Source of the DNA: Elusimicrobia bacterium GWA2_66_18
GTDB lineage: Bacteria > Elusimicrobiota > Elusimicrobia > UBA1565 > UBA9628
DNA length: 64,000 nucleotides
Reading direction: 5' to 3'
NCBI GenBank assembly: GCA_001799675.1
Contig: MGTX01000014.1
Span: forward strand, 25,290-89,289
This document shows positions 18,451 through 25,867 of this stretch, in pieces; position 1 is the stretch's first letter, and every line of letters starts with the position of its first letter. The position numbers were made by a program, and so were the translations under genes. Below the pieces are notes generated by a model, which was not told where the DNA came from, did not search any database, and worked only from the letters and a program-made list of their open reading frames with translations.

Positions 18451-19422
18451 TCAGCGGCTGACGTAGACGATCTTCGATCCCTCGGGCTCCAGGGCGAAGG
18501 GGATCTCCCGCCAGGACGACAGCGCGCGGCGCACGGCGCGGCGCTTGGCCGGCGGCGCGAAGAGCAGGAGGAAGCCGCCGCCGCCCGCGCCCAGGATCTT
18601 GCCGCCGGTCGCGCCCGCCTTGCGCGCGGCCTCGTAGGCGCGGTCGATGCCCGGGTTGGAGACGCCGCCGGAGACGCCCTTCTTGAGATCCCAACCCTCG
18701 TGGAGCATCGGACCGAGGGCGTCGACGTCGCCGTCGCGCAGGGCCTCGCGCGCCTCGTAGGCCAGGTCGCGCAAGCGCGTCATCTGCCGGTCCTTGGCCT
18801 CGAATTTCGCGCGGAAGCGGCGCAGGACGGAGCCGGCCTTGCGCGTGACGCCGGTGTAGAGCAGCAGTGTGCGTTCGGCGAACGCCGCACGGGTCTTCTC
18901 ACTTAGAACGATCGGGTCGACGCGGACGGTCTCGTCGGGCAGGAACTCGATGGACTGGAAGCCGCCGTAGGCGGCGATGTATTGGTCCTGCTTGCCGATC
19001 GGCTCCCGCAGGAACTCAATCTCGATGAGACAGGCTTCTCGCGCCAACTCCTCGGCGGTCCGATACTCGCCCTTGAAGGCGTGCAGGGCATGCAGGACGC
19101 CCACGGTGAAGCTCGACGAGGAGCCCAGGCCCGTGCCGCCGACGACGTCGGCCATCGAGGTGATCTCGACGCCGCGCTCGATGCCAACGAGCCTCAGGCA
19201 CTCGCGCAGGATGGGATGGCGGATGTCGGACACGCGCTTGACCAGCTCGGTGCGGCGGTATTTCAAGATGATCGAATCGTCGAAGTATCGGTTGACCGTC
19301 ACGTACATGTACTTGTCGATCGCGGTCGACACGACCGCGCCGGGACGGCGGCGGTAGAAGGCCGCCAGGTCCGTGCCCCCGCCCACGAAGCTGATGCGGA
19401 ACGGCGTGCGCGAGATGATCAT
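18451..19422 (-). CDS. hddA: D-glycero-D-manno-heptose 7-phosphate kinase-like GHMP kinase
   Basis: A 323-aa GHMP-family kinase. The N-terminal RTPFRISFVGGGTDL, the ATP loop GGTGLGSSSSFTVG (about residue 97) and the C-terminal GAGGGGFLLLF are exactly the arrangement of HddA-type heptose-7-phosphate 1-kinases, which also share the ISRTPFR start with fucokinase-like proteins. Immediately upstream are a GmhA-like isomerase and an HddC-like nucleotidyltransferase, which together define a nucleotide-activated D-glycero-D-manno-heptose route. The start ATG at 19422 overlaps the preceding stop (ATGA); the longer track ORF has no family support. The exact substrate is inferred from context. Confidence 0.82.
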   Translation of the reverse strand: MIISRTPFRISFVGGGTDLAAFYRRRPGAVVSTAIDKYMYVTVNRYFDDSIILKYRRTELVKRVSDIRHPILRECLRLVGIERGVEITSMADVVGGTGLGSSSSFTVGVLHALHAFKGEYRTAEELAREACLIEIEFLREPIGKQDQYIAAYGGFQSIEFLPDETVRVDPIVLSEKTRAAFAERTLLLYTGVTRKAGSVLRRFRAKFEAKDRQMTRLRDLAYEAREALRDGDVDALGPMLHEGWDLKKGVSGGVSNPGIDRAYEAARKAGATGGKILGAGGGGFLLLFAPPAKRRAVRRALSSWREIPFALEPEGSKIVYVSR

Positions 19423-20123
19423 CGGCGCGGGAGCCCGGCCTCGGCGCGCGCCAGGCGCTCGGGCGTGCCGAGGTCGGCCAGCGTCTCGCCGGTCTTGTAG
19501 CCGCGCAGCTCCAGGCCGCGGCGCAGGGCTTCGGGAAACACGTCGCGGCCGAAGTCGCTGGGACGGTCGCGCGGCGCGAGGTCGAGCAGGGGGCCGCGGA
19601 CCGCCCACACCGCCGCCAAGGCGAGCGGCTCGCACGGCGTGCCTGGCCGGGCGCGGTAGAAGCCGGTCAGGCGCTCGCCCTCCAGGCGCGCCAGGTCCGA
19701 GTCGAAGGGGTGATCGGTCTCGATGAGGACGAGGGAGGAGGCGGCCGAGGGACGCGCGGCGTGGAAGTCGACGAAGCGCCGGAAGTCCATGTCGGCGTAG
19801 AGGTCTCCGTAGACGACGAGCAGGTCGTCGCCGACCTCGGCGCGAAGATCAGCCACGGCGCCGGCCGTGCCGCGGGGACTCTTCTCGACATGATAACGGA
19901 GCTTCACGCCCCAGCGCGAGCCGTCGCCGAAGTGGGAGGTGACGGTCTCCGGACGGTAGCCAAGGCTGAGATGAATCTCCCTCCAGCCCGCCGCGGCCAG
20001 GCGTTCTACGAGATATTCCAGGATCGGTTTGCCTCCGAAGGGGAGCATCGGCTTGGGCAGGCCCTCGGTCGCCGCGCCCATGCGCTCGCCCCGGCCGCCG
20101 GCCACGATCACCGCGGCAATCAC
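19419..20123 (-). CDS. hddC: Sugar-1-phosphate nucleotidyltransferase, HddC-like
   Basis: A 234-aa enzyme with the nucleotidyltransferase signature VAGGRGERMG and the lysine-containing LPKPMLPFGGKP, then VVYGDLYADMDF as the metal-binding segment. It would activate heptose-1-phosphate, by guanylylation in the HddC family, using the product of the adjacent kinase. The start is the GTG at 20123: it overlaps the isomerase stop as GTGA and directly precedes the conserved first strand. The track ORF begins far upstream in another gene. Mannose- or glucose-1-phosphate transferase activity is a possible alternative, but the gene neighbours favour heptose. Confidence 0.8.
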   Translation of the reverse strand: MIAAVIVAGGRGERMGAATEGLPKPMLPFGGKPILEYLVERLAAAGWREIHLSLGYRPETVTSHFGDGSRWGVKLRYHVEKSPRGTAGAVADLRAEVGDDLLVVYGDLYADMDFRRFVDFHAARPSAASSLVLIETDHPFDSDLARLEGERLTGFYRARPGTPCEPLALAAVWAVRGPLLDLAPRDRPSDFGRDVFPEALRRGLELRGYKTGETLADLGTPERLARAEAGLPRR

Positions 20124-20752
20124 GTCTTCTTCTGCTTGAGGTAGAACGTCAGGATGTGAGCGACGGACATATGCATGTCCTCGATGACGCCGTACTGATC
20201 GGAGGGGATCAGAAGAGACTCGTCGCACATCGCCTTCAGCCTGCCGCCGTCGAAGCCGAGCAGGCCGATGACCTTGGCCCCGCGCCCGCGCGACAGCTTC
20301 GCGGCCTTGAGGAGGTTCGGGGAGTTGCCGCTGCCCGTAATGAGGACGACGACGTCGCCGGCCGCGACCACGTTCTCCAGTTGGCGGGAGAAGGTCTCCT
20401 CGAAGGAGAGGTCGTTGCCGACGGCGGTCATGAAGGCGGTATTGTCCGACAGGGAGACGGCCTTGAGGGGCTTGGCTCCGGCCTTGGCCGCGGTCTTGCC
20501 GAAGTCGCAGCCGACGTGGGCGGAGGTCGCCGCCGAGCCGCCGTTGCCGCAGACCCAGACGAAGCGGCCCGTCCTCTGGGCCTCCTCGATGGCGGCCGCG
20601 ACGCGGGCCAGGGCCGTCAGGTCCAGCGCCCGCCACTGCTCGAGGGCGCGCTTGCGGTACCAGCGCGCGAAACCCTGAACGTCGAGCCCCCCGGGACCGG
20701 TGACGTGCGCGGCTCCAGGCTTGGCGCCTTTGATCTTCTTTTTTTCCGTCAT
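20120..20752 (-). CDS. gmhA: Phosphoheptose isomerase-like SIS protein (GmhA-like)
   Basis: A 210-aa SIS-domain protein expected to convert sedoheptulose 7-phosphate to D-glycero-D-manno-heptose 7-phosphate. CGNGGSAATSAHVGCDFGK matches the GmhA active-site loop, and TGSGNSPNLLKA is the second SIS motif. Compared with textbook GmhA, the metal-site Glu is Asp and the C-terminal Gln appears as Glu (YGVIEDMH), while both His residues are kept. It may therefore be a GmhA-like subfamily. The ATG at 20752 is 7 nt after a TATACT and opens the heptose/glycan operon. No gmhB phosphatase gene is seen. Confidence 0.78.
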   Translation of the reverse strand: MTEKKKIKGAKPGAAHVTGPGGLDVQGFARWYRKRALEQWRALDLTALARVAAAIEEAQRTGRFVWVCGNGGSAATSAHVGCDFGKTAAKAGAKPLKAVSLSDNTAFMTAVGNDLSFEETFSRQLENVVAAGDVVVLITGSGNSPNLLKAAKLSRGRGAKVIGLLGFDGGRLKAMCDESLLIPSDQYGVIEDMHMSVAHILTFYLKQKKT

Positions 20753-20759
20753 CGCCCGC

Positions 20760-20765
20760 AGTATA
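20760..20765 (-). promoter_or_regulatory. -10 element (TATACT) for the heptose operon, leaderless spacing
   Basis: The minus-strand TATACT ends 7 nt before the gmhA-like ATG, so the predicted transcript starts at or next to the start codon. There is no Shine-Dalgarno sequence and no convincing -35 box. Confidence 0.6.
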
Positions 20766-20784
20766 TCAATTGTCGCCCGGCGCT

Positions 20785-22719
20785 TCACTTGCGGGCGTCG
20801 GCGACTCCGGCGGGAAGCGTATAGGCGAGTTGGATGAGGCGGGTGCGCTGCTCGGCGTTCAGCGCGGGGAAGCGCGCCTTGATCAGGAGATGACCGTCCT
20901 GGTTGTGGTGACAATGGACCTTATGAACATCCACGCGGCAAGAAATGCCGTCCGAGCGGATATCCACGGTGAAATGATCCGGGACATGCCCTCCTTGCGG
21001 CAGGCGCAGCAGACAGCCTTCCTCCGACAGATCCACCGTCTCGGCCTCGCGGCCCACGCCGTCTGCGATGATGGTCGCCGGAAGATTGATCCGCACGCGC
21101 GGGGCGCGCCTGCGGTAGGGCTGGTCCTGCGTGCAGCCGATCGCCAAGCCGCAAAAGATGACGTTATAAGCCGCCCACAAGCCGTTGATCAAAATCAGCT
21201 CCCAGGCGTCCGGAAACCGGAGGTATTTCCAGATGCCCGCGGACAGTCCCGCCAAGAGGGCGAGGAACAGGACCAGGATCGGAGCCGCAGTCCGCCAATT
21301 ATTCCGCCGCGCATGGGACGTATCGCCTTTCGGCGTCACGAGGAACTCGGCCTCGCGCAGCCATGGGCAGAGGAATGTCTTCGCCATCCGCGCCAGGACG
21401 GGAACCATCTGGATGATTTCGTAAATGGAGCACAGGGCGAAATGGGAGACGTGTCCGCAAACCGCGTCGAACATGACGAGGTTGACGAGAAATGCCGGCA
21501 GGAAGTAGGAGCCCAAGCTCCCGATGTCGGTCTGCAGGCACCGCCAGCCCATGGCCAAATACCACAGCGGAGCCGTCATGTAGATGAGCCGCTGCAAAGG
21601 GAAGAAATAATACGCGAGCAGGTTCACGAAGAACACCCTCTGATACCAGCGCAACCCCGGCTTCCAAATCGGATTGTCTTTCAGGAAAATCTGGAAATTC
21701 CCGGTCGCCCAACGCAGCCTCTGAACGAGGAAACCGTAGAGCGTCTCCGGCACCAGGCCATGGATGAGGTCCTTGTTGAGGTATTCGATCCGGTAGCCGC
21801 GGGCCAGCAGGTTGATGCTGGTATGGGTGTCCTCGGTGACGGTCTCCATGCGAAAACCGCCGATCTCCTTGAGCGCGGAACGGCGGATGACGCCGGCGGA
21901 GCCGGCGAAGAAAGCGGAATCCCAAAGCCCCAGGCCGTGCATGATGACTTGATAAAAGAGCTCCTGCTCGTTGGAAATCTCGCGGCCGGCGCGGAAGTTG
22001 CGGCGGAAAGGATCGTCATTGACGAAATGATGCGCCGTCTGAACGGCCGCGATCCGGGGATCCTTGAAAAACGGCGCGGTCTCCTCCAGGAACGTGCGCA
22101 CGGGTATATGATCCACGTCGAAGACGGCGATCAACTCCCCCTGGGTGCGCTCTAAAGCGTAGTTCAGGTTTCCGGCCTTGGCCCCCCGGCGGGTGCCGCG
22201 CCGGAAATAGCCGCAGCCAAGCTCCCGCGCCAGGGCCTCGACCTCGTCGCGGCCGCCGTCATCGAGGATGTGCACCGCGCGCGGCAGGTAAGCTTGAGAC
22301 AGACAGCCGATCACCGTCCGGGTGAGGATAGCGAGGGGCTCGTGAGTAACGGTGACGAAGATGTCGACGCTCGGGCGCCCCTCCCAAGACGGCGCCTGGG
22401 GAAGGGGCCGGTCGATGTTCCAGAGATGGACGTAAAAAAGGGACATGTTCACGGCGCCCCAGACGTCGGCGGCCAAAAGCAATCCGCTGCAGATTGCGTT
22501 GGCCGTCGTGTCGAGCGCGAGCGTCGATGTCCAGCGCCAGGCCAGGAAGCGCAGGGTCAGGAATACGCTGAGCAGAAGGCCGGTCTTATGCAATCTCCGG
22601 TTTCTTGGCCGCAAGAACAGCAAGGCGAGGAAAAGCGCCGTCCCCGTCCAGACGGCGTGCTCGGGCCGCAAGAGCTCCCGCCCGAGCTCGAACCAGTTGA
22701 TTTCCCTGGTGAAGTCCAT
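20785..22719 (-). CDS. bcsA: Cellulose-synthase-like GT2 with C-terminal PilZ domain (BcsA-like)
   Basis: A 644-aa processive membrane glycosyltransferase. Catalytic motifs are all present: ILDDGG (about 155), VFDVDH (about 201), TVTEDTH (about 292) and QRLRWATG (about 334), with hydrophobic helices on both sides. The C-terminal region from about 535 has the PilZ signature, RRRAPR (c-di-GMP-binding RxxxR type) and DLSEEGCLL, so activity should respond to cyclic-di-GMP. The protein is shorter than E. coli BcsA and no BcsB or BcsZ is adjacent. The polymer need not be cellulose. It is translated directly after a TPR/beta-barrel partner gene 4 nt upstream. Confidence 0.88.
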   Translation of the reverse strand: MDFTREINWFELGRELLRPEHAVWTGTALFLALLFLRPRNRRLHKTGLLLSVFLTLRFLAWRWTSTLALDTTANAICSGLLLAADVWGAVNMSLFYVHLWNIDRPLPQAPSWEGRPSVDIFVTVTHEPLAILTRTVIGCLSQAYLPRAVHILDDGGRDEVEALARELGCGYFRRGTRRGAKAGNLNYALERTQGELIAVFDVDHIPVRTFLEETAPFFKDPRIAAVQTAHHFVNDDPFRRNFRAGREISNEQELFYQVIMHGLGLWDSAFFAGSAGVIRRSALKEIGGFRMETVTEDTHTSINLLARGYRIEYLNKDLIHGLVPETLYGFLVQRLRWATGNFQIFLKDNPIWKPGLRWYQRVFFVNLLAYYFFPLQRLIYMTAPLWYLAMGWRCLQTDIGSLGSYFLPAFLVNLVMFDAVCGHVSHFALCSIYEIIQMVPVLARMAKTFLCPWLREAEFLVTPKGDTSHARRNNWRTAAPILVLFLALLAGLSAGIWKYLRFPDAWELILINGLWAAYNVIFCGLAIGCTQDQPYRRRAPRVRINLPATIIADGVGREAETVDLSEEGCLLRLPQGGHVPDHFTVDIRSDGISCRVDVHKVHCHHNQDGHLLIKARFPALNAEQRTRLIQLAYTLPAGVADARK

Positions 22720-22723
22720 GGGC

Positions 22724-24265
22724 TCAGAAACGCGCTTGGATGGCCGCGACGACGTGACGCGACACGAACTTCGGTCCGCCGTCGAGCCGGGAGACGAGAT
22801 AATAGCCGTCGACGGCGGCGCGCAAGCGGCCCCAATCCATCTTCAGTCCGGCCTCGACGCTGTCGCCGGTTTGGCGTCCCTGCGGCTGATAGAAGAGCAA
22901 GTTCGAAACCTCGACCCGCAGCCGGCCCAGCCGCCCCTTGGCGCGGGCGGCCCAGCCGTGGGAAAGATAGCCGTCGGGGCTGAAATAGAGCGGGCTCGGA
23001 TGCTGGACGTCCAAGTAATAGAGTTGATAGCCCGTCTCGACTCCCTGTTCCGGCCCACCCGCCAAGCGGTAAAAGACTTGATCGACGCTGGAGAACTTGC
23101 GGTTGCCGCCGGCATGGCGATAGACGCCGTAATGGGCGTCGGCATGGAGACGCCAACGGCCGGGCTCGGCGGAAAACGCGGCCGCGAAGTCGTCGAGCTG
23201 GACGCGCCGCTGGACCGAGGCCAGGGAGGCCTCATCGAACGAGCCGATGACTTCGCTTGGGGCGCCCGCATAAAGATCGGCTCGCTGATAAGAGGCCATG
23301 ACGTGGACGCCGTCCGCCGCAAGCCCGCCGGCGCGCGCGCGCCCGCTGAAGGTGGCGGGCCCGCTCTGGAACCACGTCCCGCGGGCCTCTCCATCGAAGC
23401 GCCAACGAAGCCCGACTTGCCCATCGAGGCGAAGGTCGGCGGAGTCCGCCTCGATTGCGCTCTTTCCGAACTGCAGGTAGCGCCAATGGGTATGACTGGG
23501 CGCCAGCCGCCAGTTATCGAAAGGCCGCAGGCCGATTTCCGTCGTCAACGCCGAGCGCTGGAATCCGTTCGAGTTGGAGAAGAAGGCCGGAGTCAAAGAA
23601 GCCTCCGGCCGTCTGGAGTCTTTGAGACGATTCCAGCCGTCCTGCGCCTGCTTATCCTCGGCGGAAAGCGCCAGCGCCCGTCCGAATTCTGCGCGCGAGG
23701 AAGCCCAATCCCCCACCCAGGAATGAAGCTCGCCCAGAGCCGCGTGAGCCTTCGCGCTGCCGGCGTCTTGCGCCAGCGCCGAACGCAATTCGCGCTCGGA
23801 AGCGATCAGCCTCCCGCTCCAGCCGAGAAGCTGGGCGCGCTCCAGCGTGAGATCCCGGCGGGAAGGGCCGCTGGCGAGCAGGACGTCGTAGAGTTCCAGG
23901 GCCTGCCGATGCCTGCCCGACCAAGCCAAGGCGCGCGCGCGCGCGATCCGCGCCGGAGCAAACGCCGGATCGATCTTAAGAGCCGCTTCGGCCTCGGCGA
24001 TGGCCCGGTCGTATTGATGGTCCCAGGCGAGCACTTCGGCGAGTTCCGCCATCGCCGGAAGAGCCTCGGGTCCGGGCGCCTGAGCCGAGAGCGATCGGCG
24101 GTAGAGCTCGATCGATTCGCGATAGCGCCCCGCCCACGACAGCCGCCGCGCCGCATCGATCGACTGCGGGCCCGCGACGGCGGCCGCGGCGACGTGCCCC
24201 GCCGTCAAGAGCGACGCGACGCAGAGACCGGCGCGGCATGACGCTCGAATGATTCCGCTTCTCAT
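22724..24265 (-). CDS. TPR and outer-membrane beta-barrel exopolysaccharide exporter (BcsC/PgaA-like)
   Basis: A 513-aa protein with a signal peptide, then about 180 residues of tetratricopeptide-type helical repeats (for example DRAIAEAEAALKIDPAFAPA and RHRQALELYDVLL), then about 300 residues of alternating amphipathic strands ending in a terminal Phe (IQARF), typical of an outer-membrane barrel. This is a compact BcsC/PgaA/AlgK-AlgE-like layout for pulling a polysaccharide through the periplasm and out of the cell. Four nt separate it from the synthase gene, which strongly supports a synthase-exporter pair. The start at 24265 was chosen for the signal peptide. Confidence 0.78.
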   Translation of the reverse strand: MRSGIIRASCRAGLCVASLLTAGHVAAAAVAGPQSIDAARRLSWAGRYRESIELYRRSLSAQAPGPEALPAMAELAEVLAWDHQYDRAIAEAEAALKIDPAFAPARIARARALAWSGRHRQALELYDVLLASGPSRRDLTLERAQLLGWSGRLIASERELRSALAQDAGSAKAHAALGELHSWVGDWASSRAEFGRALALSAEDKQAQDGWNRLKDSRRPEASLTPAFFSNSNGFQRSALTTEIGLRPFDNWRLAPSHTHWRYLQFGKSAIEADSADLRLDGQVGLRWRFDGEARGTWFQSGPATFSGRARAGGLAADGVHVMASYQRADLYAGAPSEVIGSFDEASLASVQRRVQLDDFAAAFSAEPGRWRLHADAHYGVYRHAGGNRKFSSVDQVFYRLAGGPEQGVETGYQLYYLDVQHPSPLYFSPDGYLSHGWAARAKGRLGRLRVEVSNLLFYQPQGRQTGDSVEAGLKMDWGRLRAAVDGYYLVSRLDGGPKFVSRHVVAAIQARF

Positions 24266-24331
24266 GACCCAATTTCCATCACAGTCGGAGCCGGAACGGT
24301 TGACGAGGTCGTGGCGCTGCAAAAATAGACG

Positions 24332-25867
24332 CTACTGGTTGTATCGGTCCTGGGCGTACTTGCGCAGGGCTTCGGCCTCTTTGGCGCTGAGGCCCTTCTG
24401 CCAGACATGCTCGTCCTTGGCCAGGACGGCCGCGACGCGAGCCTGCCACTTCTTCTCCATCTCCGGGCTCTTGAGCTTGGCCGCTTCGATCACCGCCGGC
24501 AGGAACTTCGTGTAGAAGTGCTTGGAGACCTCGTACATGCCGTGCCAGTGAGTGTAGTCCGGACCCATCATGCTGGCGCCGTGGCGCGCGCGCCGGCCTT
24601 CATGATGCCAGAGTTCCCAGTACACCCACTGGACCTCGTGCTCGAAGGGCGCCTTCTGCTGGAGCACCCCGTCCTTGATCAGGTCGTCCATGATCTCTTT
24701 GGCCGGCCTGGCGAACTTGTCGTTGTAGAGGGTCACCAGGCTGTCGTACTGCTTGTAGAAGTTGTCGACGAAGCTGTCTCCGTGGCAGTTGACGCAGGCC
24801 GCCTTCATCTTGCCGCGCCGCTCCTGCCAGGTGAGGATCTTCGCCACCTTGCGCGCGACCTTCCTGGTCACGAGCGCGTCGCCCTCCCGGACCTTCTCGG
24901 CCGTCTCGACCGTCTCGCCCGGCTTGGGCAGGGCGCGAGGCTCCGGGTAGTCCTCCTTGAAGCCGTCCTCGAAAACGACCAGGTTGAGCTTGGCGCTGAT
25001 GACGGGACGCAGGGTCCAACTGATGCGCTCGCCCACGTCATGGCTGTTGCCGGCGACCTTGCCGTCCTTGGTCATGTGTCCCGAGATGTGGCAGGTCGCG
25101 CAAGTCGGGGCCGCCGAGTAGTCCTTGCCCAGGATCCACTCGTCTTTGTCGAGCGCCATCTTGTCGCGGTTGGCGTTGAAGGCGATGCCGTGCTTGGACT
25201 CGTTGTAGATCTCGATTTGCGGATGGTCGGGGCCCATGTGGCACTTGCCGCAGTTCTCCGGCGAGCGCGCGGTCTTGGCCTCGAAGGCGTGGCGCGAGTG
25301 GCAGGCGTTGCAGGAGCCGCGCGAGCCGTCGGGGTTGATGCGCCCGATGCCGCTGTTGGGCCAGGTCTCGGGGTCGAGGACCGGCTTGCCTTCCGGCCCC
25401 TCGCGCAGGAGCTCGCCCTTGGCGTCCTTTTTGAACTTGACGACCCCGCCGTGGCACTGCAGGCAGCCGTTGACCGCATCGGCGTTGTTGCCGGGCATGC
25501 CCGCGGCCTTCTCGGCCAGGACGTTGTCGAGGCTGGCGAGAATCTCCCCGGCCAGGGCGTGATGGCTGCGGGAGAACTCCTCATTCTCCTTGGCATGGCA
25601 TTGGGCGCAATCCTTGGGGGTCACGATCATCGAGATGCGCTCGCCGTGGTGCACCCAGGAGCCGGCCTTATTCTGATCGGCCTTGTGGCAGGCCAGGCAG
25701 TCCACGCCGTTCTTGGCGTGCTTGGAGCGTTCCCACTCCATGACGAGCGCGGCGGACTGCTTGCGGTGGCAATCGGAGCAGCCCTCGGCCGCCCGAGCCG
25801 CGCCCGGAAGGGCCGCCGTCAGAAGCAGGAGCGCCCAAGCGCGGATGATGCTGAAATTCGATTTCAT
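24332..25867 (-). CDS. Octaheme cytochrome c, hydroxylamine-oxidoreductase family
   Basis: A 511-aa exported protein with a signal peptide ending near ARA-AEG. Eight CXXCH haem-binding motifs are present: CSDCH, CLACH, CAQCH, CLQCH, CNACH, CGKCH, CATCH and CVNCH. Eight hemes plus the C-terminal MGPDYTHWHGMYE segment match the HAO/octaheme family of periplasmic N-oxide-converting enzymes. Whether it oxidises hydroxylamine or hydrazine, or reduces nitrite or hydroxylamine, depends on the haem-crosslinking Tyr, which I cannot place by eye. No quinone-linked partner is adjacent. ATG 25867 has an AAGAGAG ribosome site. The next minus-strand gene starts 66 nt downstream. Confidence 0.85.
   Translation of the reverse strand: MKSNFSIIRAWALLLLTAALPGAARAAEGCSDCHRKQSAALVMEWERSKHAKNGVDCLACHKADQNKAGSWVHHGERISMIVTPKDCAQCHAKENEEFSRSHHALAGEILASLDNVLAEKAAGMPGNNADAVNGCLQCHGGVVKFKKDAKGELLREGPEGKPVLDPETWPNSGIGRINPDGSRGSCNACHSRHAFEAKTARSPENCGKCHMGPDHPQIEIYNESKHGIAFNANRDKMALDKDEWILGKDYSAAPTCATCHISGHMTKDGKVAGNSHDVGERISWTLRPVISAKLNLVVFEDGFKEDYPEPRALPKPGETVETAEKVREGDALVTRKVARKVAKILTWQERRGKMKAACVNCHGDSFVDNFYKQYDSLVTLYNDKFARPAKEIMDDLIKDGVLQQKAPFEHEVQWVYWELWHHEGRRARHGASMMGPDYTHWHGMYEVSKHFYTKFLPAVIEAAKLKSPEMEKKWQARVAAVLAKDEHVWQKGLSAKEAEALRKYAQDRYNQ

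Follow-up and report, generated by a model that had tools for sequence, protein, structure and literature searches.

Proteins of the HAO family have been reported from 65 phyla, mostly without known function outside the nitrifier and anammox clade (PMC9213671). The reductive kin characterised so far include HAOr, which converts nitrite slowly to NO, and eHao, which takes nitrite to ammonium in vitro (PMC12485887, PMC9213671); the reductive HAO of Kuenenia has been characterised (cited in PMC12485887). It is accepted that reductive HAOs are marked by the absence of the Tyr cross-link (PMC12758564, PMC8940962), and ancestral reconstruction infers that His at the cross-link site is the reductive state (PMC12758564). 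The reductive eHao of Campylobacterota has been proposed to work with a partner of the cM552/NapC type, and under the reverse-HURM proposal a reductive HAO converts nitrite to hydroxylamine, which Hcp, fed by ferredoxin, then takes to ammonium (PMC3701875). An HAO-family protein of this type has also been proposed as the nitrite reductase of Caldithrix abyssi (PMC5317091), and in Phycisphaerae similar genes have come under discussion as putative nitrite reductases (PMC11266412). A full-text literature search with Elusimicrobia and hydroxylamine returned no paper that treats the HAO copies of Elusimicrobiota by title or abstract. An earlier, sequence-only reading of the DNA analysed here correctly described its lineage as one not known for nitrification. 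Given the spread of the family over 65 phyla, an HAO-family gene in Elusimicrobiota is unsurprising. It is a further member of a known, mostly uncharacterised group, to which we add operon and genome evidence.

The gene lies within a 64,000-nucleotide window (G000:C14:25290-89289), the whole stretch of DNA that was analysed, which belongs to a 2.79-Mb metagenome-assembled genome (MAG) that is 94.7% complete and 0.6% contaminated. It occupies window positions 24332..25867 on the minus strand, from an ATG at 25867 to a stop codon at 24332-24334, and its open reading frame translates into a 511-amino-acid octaheme cytochrome c, with residue n at 25867-3(n-1), counting downwards. A Sec-type signal peptide, recognised by eye (MKSNFSIIRAWALLLLTAALPGAARAAEGC; residues 1 to ~27, 25787..25867, minus strand), would be cleaved near ARA-AE. 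The translation bears out the eight CXXCH motifs noted in the sequence-only reading, all on the minus strand and each aligned with its HAO counterpart: CSDCH at heme 1 (residues 30-34, 25766..25780), CLACH at heme 2 (57-61, 25685..25699), CAQCH at heme 3 (87-91, 25595..25609), CLQCH at heme 4 (135-139, 25451..25465), CNACH at heme 5 (186-190, 25298..25312), CGKCH at heme 6 (206-210, 25238..25252), CATCH at heme 7 (256-260, 25088..25102) and CVNCH at heme 8 (358-362, 24782..24796). The active site of HAO is its heme 4. By alignment with HAO Cys229-His233, heme 4 of the window protein is the counterpart of this catalytic P460 heme. The catalytic pair Asp267-His268 of Nitrosomonas europaea HAO corresponds to Asp214-His215 (25223..25228, minus strand), which is invariant across two homologue alignments (A1 and A2), and the P460 cross-link Tyr467 corresponds to His440 (24548..24550, minus strand). 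The string MMGPDYTHWHGMYE occupies residues 433-446, and the C-terminal stretch reads RHGASMMGPDYTHWHGMYEVSKHFY. Eight heme motifs in one 511-codon frame, kept at 70-91% identity in related species, are not due to chance.

Based on these features and on structure searches, assignment of the protein to the HAO family of octaheme cytochromes is well supported at the sequence level. All eight hemes align one to one, in register, with those of N. europaea HAO; the query sequence of the latter, checked against the PDB, differs from the 1fgj and 4fas chains by one residue each, at different places, and we aligned with the 4fas version. The Pfam model Multi-haem_cyto (PF13447) scores 82 bits, where the cut-off is 21.9. 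Searches with phmmer and a 24-row profile matched HAO-type structures only, led by 4qo5 (Ignicoccus OCC, 1.3e-58) and followed by 6h5l, the Kuenenia reducing HAO complex, then 4n4j, 4fas/1fgj, 6t5e and 6hif. At a limit of E=10, the profile placed eight HAO-type chains at E values of 1e-16 to 1e-58, with NrfA chains next at E values of at least 0.015. Foldseek, for whose ranking alone an AlphaFold model was used (low confidence, mean pLDDT 64, no hemes), gave significant matches only to 4qo5 and 6h5l.

Membership in the family, as claimed in the sequence-only reading, had been set there against OTR or ONR. We reject both, as neither OTR (1sp3) nor ONR (3f29) gave a profile match up to E=10 and all eight motifs of the window protein are CXXCH; one of the eight hemes of ONR is without this motif. 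The sulfite reductase MccA, which carries one heme on an unusual long C-X(15-17)-C-H motif, is likewise rejected, based on the eight ordinary CXXCH motifs and the lack of an MccA match in the structure search. The segment MGPDYTHWHGMYE, previously taken as the signature of the HAO family, does not serve for the family at large, as Nitrosomonas HAO reads VNPGGWTYTEGWGPMN there; the string is a mark of the window protein's own non-cross-linked clade.

The cross-link position speaks to the direction of catalysis. In oxidative HAO, HDH and HOX enzymes a C-terminal Tyr is cross-linked to heme 4 of the adjacent subunit; the alignment check suggested in the sequence-only reading finds His440 in its place. 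The residue is His in 70/72 readable homologues and Phe in the remaining 2/72, with Tyr in 0/72. In other words, the protein has no cross-link Tyr but is otherwise HAO-like, as are reductive HAOs of the HAOr, eHao and IhOCC type. His440, together with gene context in relatives, supports the view that the window protein is a reductive, non-cross-linked HAO-type enzyme. The reductive role put forward earlier thus survives, but not the reason given for it, a missing tetraheme partner. The latter is no guide to direction because a reductive eHao is itself proposed to have a cM552/NapC-type partner.

A scan of a genome collection confirmed 310 of 387 pattern-matching stretches as relatives, 80 of which were kept. 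These 80 come from Elusimicrobia, Zixibacteria, Verrucomicrobia, Latescibacterota, KSB1, Calditrichota, Ignavibacteria, Acidobacteria, Binatia and Planctomycetes (with anammox genera), among others. Nearly all are 60-92% identical to the window protein, one from Desulfococcaceae being 48% identical, and the closest homologues with named records are from Elusimicrobia bacteria. Strong matches occur in 16/147 related genomes, the window's own included; most are full length, those in G008, G009 and G016 being cut by contig ends, and the other copies are 71-91% identical to the window protein. In a quick tree the Elusimicrobiota copies group together (SH-aLRT 99), the only grouping readable there, with the outgroups HAO and IhOCC (the latter partial) on very long branches. 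A plasmid search gave three distant matches only, the best at 39% identity. The reading frame is unbroken, and dN/dS of 0.08-0.27 against five relatives shows purifying selection. Given this and a GC content like that of the window (65% versus 66%), it is a resident, selected gene. A promoter scan found no promoter site upstream of it, and the one terminator-like site there is at chance level. The homologue in Candidatus Brocadia carolinensis (L126:8001-9471) has 11 stops in one frame, which means a frameshift, a pseudogene or an error of assembly.

Gene contexts of the homologues were called with a codon-usage script and are approximate. Cytochrome b lies directly upstream of hao in 18/71 callable loci and a Rieske gene precedes it in 10, with family identities of both confirmed on locus L069. 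A NapA-like gene is near the Rieske-cytochrome b-hao genes in L069, L070, L073 and L085; the L069 protein is matched best by NapA models, yet below their curated cut-off. In the cytochrome b-hao operons a small protein of ~200 amino acids recurs just downstream of hao (L067, L070, L081, L094, L116, L117, L118); the L116 copy, searched against Pfam, gave no match. Elusimicrobia relatives show the order rrf2-hcp-ferredoxin-hao (L042/L059, with Hcp above the NCBIfam cut-off) or rrf2-ferredoxin-hao (L046/L062 and L047), and an Rrf2 gene encoding three or four cysteines is found directly upstream of hao or one gene further in L047, L056, L058, L059 and L062. In operons of the rrf2-(hcp)-ferredoxin-hao type the genes are paired as in the reverse-HURM pathway (PMC3701875), and we count this for a nitrite reading. 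The anammox copies adjoin genes for DUF488, aldo-keto reductase and hemerythrin proteins.

A genome of the same family, G020, has a 28-codon piece (L142:12772-12855, minus strand) that matches the hao C-terminus, stop codon included, with 72% identity over 25 residues. This remnant directly follows the stop of an outer-membrane-type gene and lies ~20 bases before a NarK-like transporter gene, which precedes narG and narH; the transporter and outer-membrane genes were identified by eye. Most simply, this would mean that a hao gene formerly located just upstream of narK-nar has been lost by deletion, with its 3' end left behind.

At the window locus the neighbours give no hint of nitrogen metabolism, being a cupin, a TPR/barrel protein (22724-24268, minus strand, below the hao gene) and a cellulose-synthase-like glycosyltransferase with a PilZ domain (20785-22719, minus strand). 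SIS-type isomerase-, nucleotidyltransferase- and sugar kinase-like genes, read by eye, follow at 18451-20914 (minus strand), and the genes at 18451-24268 hint at a pathway for exopolysaccharide and heptose. The window has no tetraheme partner linked to hao and no Rrf2 or hcp neighbour at the locus. The gene is thus stand-alone locally, as the sequence-only reading had it, but this does not extend further: the genome carries a NapC-type cytochrome and relatives keep hao in operons. The genome search for NrfH- or cM552-like partners returned a single NapC-family domain, which is within an unlinked fusion. This 13-heme protein with an N-terminal NapC/NirT domain is divergent from a pentaheme cytochrome gene on contig 27 (L035:12901-15470), and the two are a possible quinol-to-multiheme conduit. 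On contig 13 (L141:8600-11302), a four-heme cytochrome, a DsrO/QrcC-like FeS protein and an NrfD-type membrane protein stand in a row and make a candidate quinol module.

The host genome has the inventory of a nitrate respirer. On contig 31, and thus on another contig than hao, are narG (1524 bits, cut-off 1084), narH, narI and the gene of a NarK-family transporter; narH and narI score above their cut-offs, the transporter below its own. One set of alternative complex III genes lies beside nar, and another is with an aa3 oxidase on contig 26; both were recognised by gene order, a pentaheme protein and NrfD-family matches, and by no dedicated model. Two c-type cytochrome assembly genes are present. 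Family searches of the genome found no NrfA, Hcp, NirK or Rieske gene and no NorB-type gene, the single COX1-family gene having subunit I of aa3 oxidase as its closest model, at 644 bits and so slightly short of the 671-bit cut-off. Thus the genome does not combine a cM552/NapC-type quinol partner with Hcp, as eHao and reverse-HURM have it. A Rieske/cytochrome b partner, as seen in many other phyla, is rejected for the window enzyme, since the search of its genome gave no Rieske protein. Among the 147 related genomes, narG and hao occur together more often than expected: of seven with strong narG, 3/7 have hao versus 16/147 overall (Fisher p=0.029, in a test that ignores phylogeny and MAG incompleteness). 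Among hao-bearing relatives 13/16 are without narG, and four narG-bearing relatives are without full hao.

Taken together, we suspect, with a probability of about 0.68, that the gene encodes a secreted reductive octaheme cytochrome that reduces nitrite, most likely to ammonium, in a nitrate-respiring Elusimicrobiota bacterium. It may be the nitrite reductase of its host, given NarGHI-NarK and alternative complex III and no NrfA, NirK, Hcp, Rieske or NorB-type gene. In this scheme NarGHI would make nitrite, which NarK would export to the periplasm. Electrons would probably come from quinol via alternative complex III or a NapC/NrfD-type module, since the genome is without a Rieske protein; donor candidates are alternative complex III, the 13-heme NapC fusion and the tetraheme/FeS/NrfD module of contig 13. 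They would pass through a multiheme wire, with seven other hemes feeding heme 4, which would be open for substrate, and Asp214-His215 would support proton-coupled reduction of nitrite, and possibly also that of hydroxylamine or NO. As the genome searches turned up neither a NorB-type nor an Hcp sink that would take up NO or hydroxylamine, we consider ammonium the likeliest product. The contexts that we count for nitrite are Rieske-cytochrome b-hao (some with napA), rrf2-hcp-ferredoxin-hao and the G020 remnant before narK-nar.

Alternatively, the enzyme could serve to detoxify periplasmic hydroxylamine or NO during nitrosative stress, outside nitrate respiration and expressed under an iron-sulfur Rrf2/NsrR-like regulator. 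Rrf2 regulators near hao in five Elusimicrobia-type loci, with hcp and ferredoxin in one, would fit this, as would the stress-like neighbours of the anammox copies and the absence of narG from most hao-bearing Elusimicrobia. Counter to this, neither Rrf2 nor hcp adjoins hao at the window locus, the genome has no hcp, and respiration is the better fit for the Rieske-cytochrome b-hao-nap operons of other phyla and for the remnant of hao before narK. We consider detoxification rather unlikely. Reduction of a sulfur compound such as sulfite or tetrathionate is quite improbable. It has been proposed for HAO clade I of the vent Desulfobacterota lineage Tharpellota, and HAO clades I and II are mostly of unassigned function (PMC9213671); for octaheme nitrite reductases, sulfite is a further substrate (PMC8840924). 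However, the Tharpellota proposal builds on distribution alone, operons with nap or hcp point to nitrogen, and OTR gave no profile match.

The two remaining possibilities concern whether the protein oxidises its substrate or has one at all. The HAO-type sequence, eight hemes and conserved Asp-His pair would also suit an oxidative hydroxylamine dehydrogenase, as in nitrifiers, but we reject this because the cross-link Tyr is replaced by His, with no Tyr among the readable homologues; in addition, no cyt c554/cM552 is co-located in the window. Thus, oxidation is very improbable. A multiheme electron conduit for extracellular transfer or storage, acting on no small molecule, might be entertained given the other multiheme cytochromes of the genome, including the 13-heme NapC-type fusion beside a pentaheme protein. 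Yet the active-site residues and heme-4 pocket sequence are invariant across many phyla, which fits catalysis and makes a pure conduit hardly credible.

Returning to nitrite reduction, it is possible, and we propose it tentatively, that the whole clade is a widespread, overlooked respiratory nitrite reductase, supplied with quinol electrons via Rieske/cytochrome b in many phyla or, in Elusimicrobiota, via alternative complex III. If so, nitrate-respiring bacteria without NrfA, NirK and NirS would owe their missing nitrite step to this clade. The Elusimicrobiota gene offers a concrete, testable case: its active site is invariant, nitrogen-oxide operons recur in relatives, and the host respires nitrate but is without most known nitrite reductases. 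Automated annotation may label such a reductive enzyme as hydroxylamine oxidase, so that nitrification is read where nitrite reduction is likelier.

Compared with described systems, the window protein shares with N. europaea HAO (1fgj/4fas) eight hemes in register and the Asp-His pair. It differs by two insertions, one following heme 4 and the other between hemes 7 and 8, and does not match the hydrophobic C-terminal tail of that enzyme. Copies in Brocadia, Kuenenia, Jettenia and Scalindua are 62-66% identical to it; they differ in their DUF488, aldo-keto reductase and hemerythrin neighbours. The eHao proteins of Campylobacterota and Caldithrix abyssi (Cabys_2556), likened here by description, are likewise non-cross-linked, and nitrite reduction has been proposed for them or shown in vitro. 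The C. abyssi gene is beside Rieske, cytochrome b and nap genes (PMC5317091), the layout of the Calditrichota, KSB1 and Ignavibacteria homologues found here. In contrast, the window gene stands outside such an operon, in a genome without Rieske.

HAOr of Kuenenia (Kustc0457/Kustc0458, 6h5l) is of the same family, reductive and free of the Tyr cross-link (PMC12485887). It differs in belonging to the 'major' anammox clade (PMC12758564) and in having its own dedicated partner subunit. HAOr is the second-best structural match to the window protein, although pairwise similarity is low outside hemes 5-7. The best relative by both profile (1.3e-58) and Foldseek (1.1e-12) is the OCC of Ignicoccus hospitalis (4qo5), an octaheme cytochrome c whose structure was reportedly described by Parey et al. 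in FEBS J in 2016. It is archaeal, with ~24% identity over the Foldseek alignment, and has Asp-Val in place of the Asp-His pair; the cross-link region reads GQDWTTF, compared to GPDYTHW in the window protein. Like the window protein, it has no Tyr at the cross-link position, and common to both is an insertion after heme 4, WPNSGIGRINPDGS in the window protein and YPNHGVGRVNPDGS in Ignicoccus OCC.
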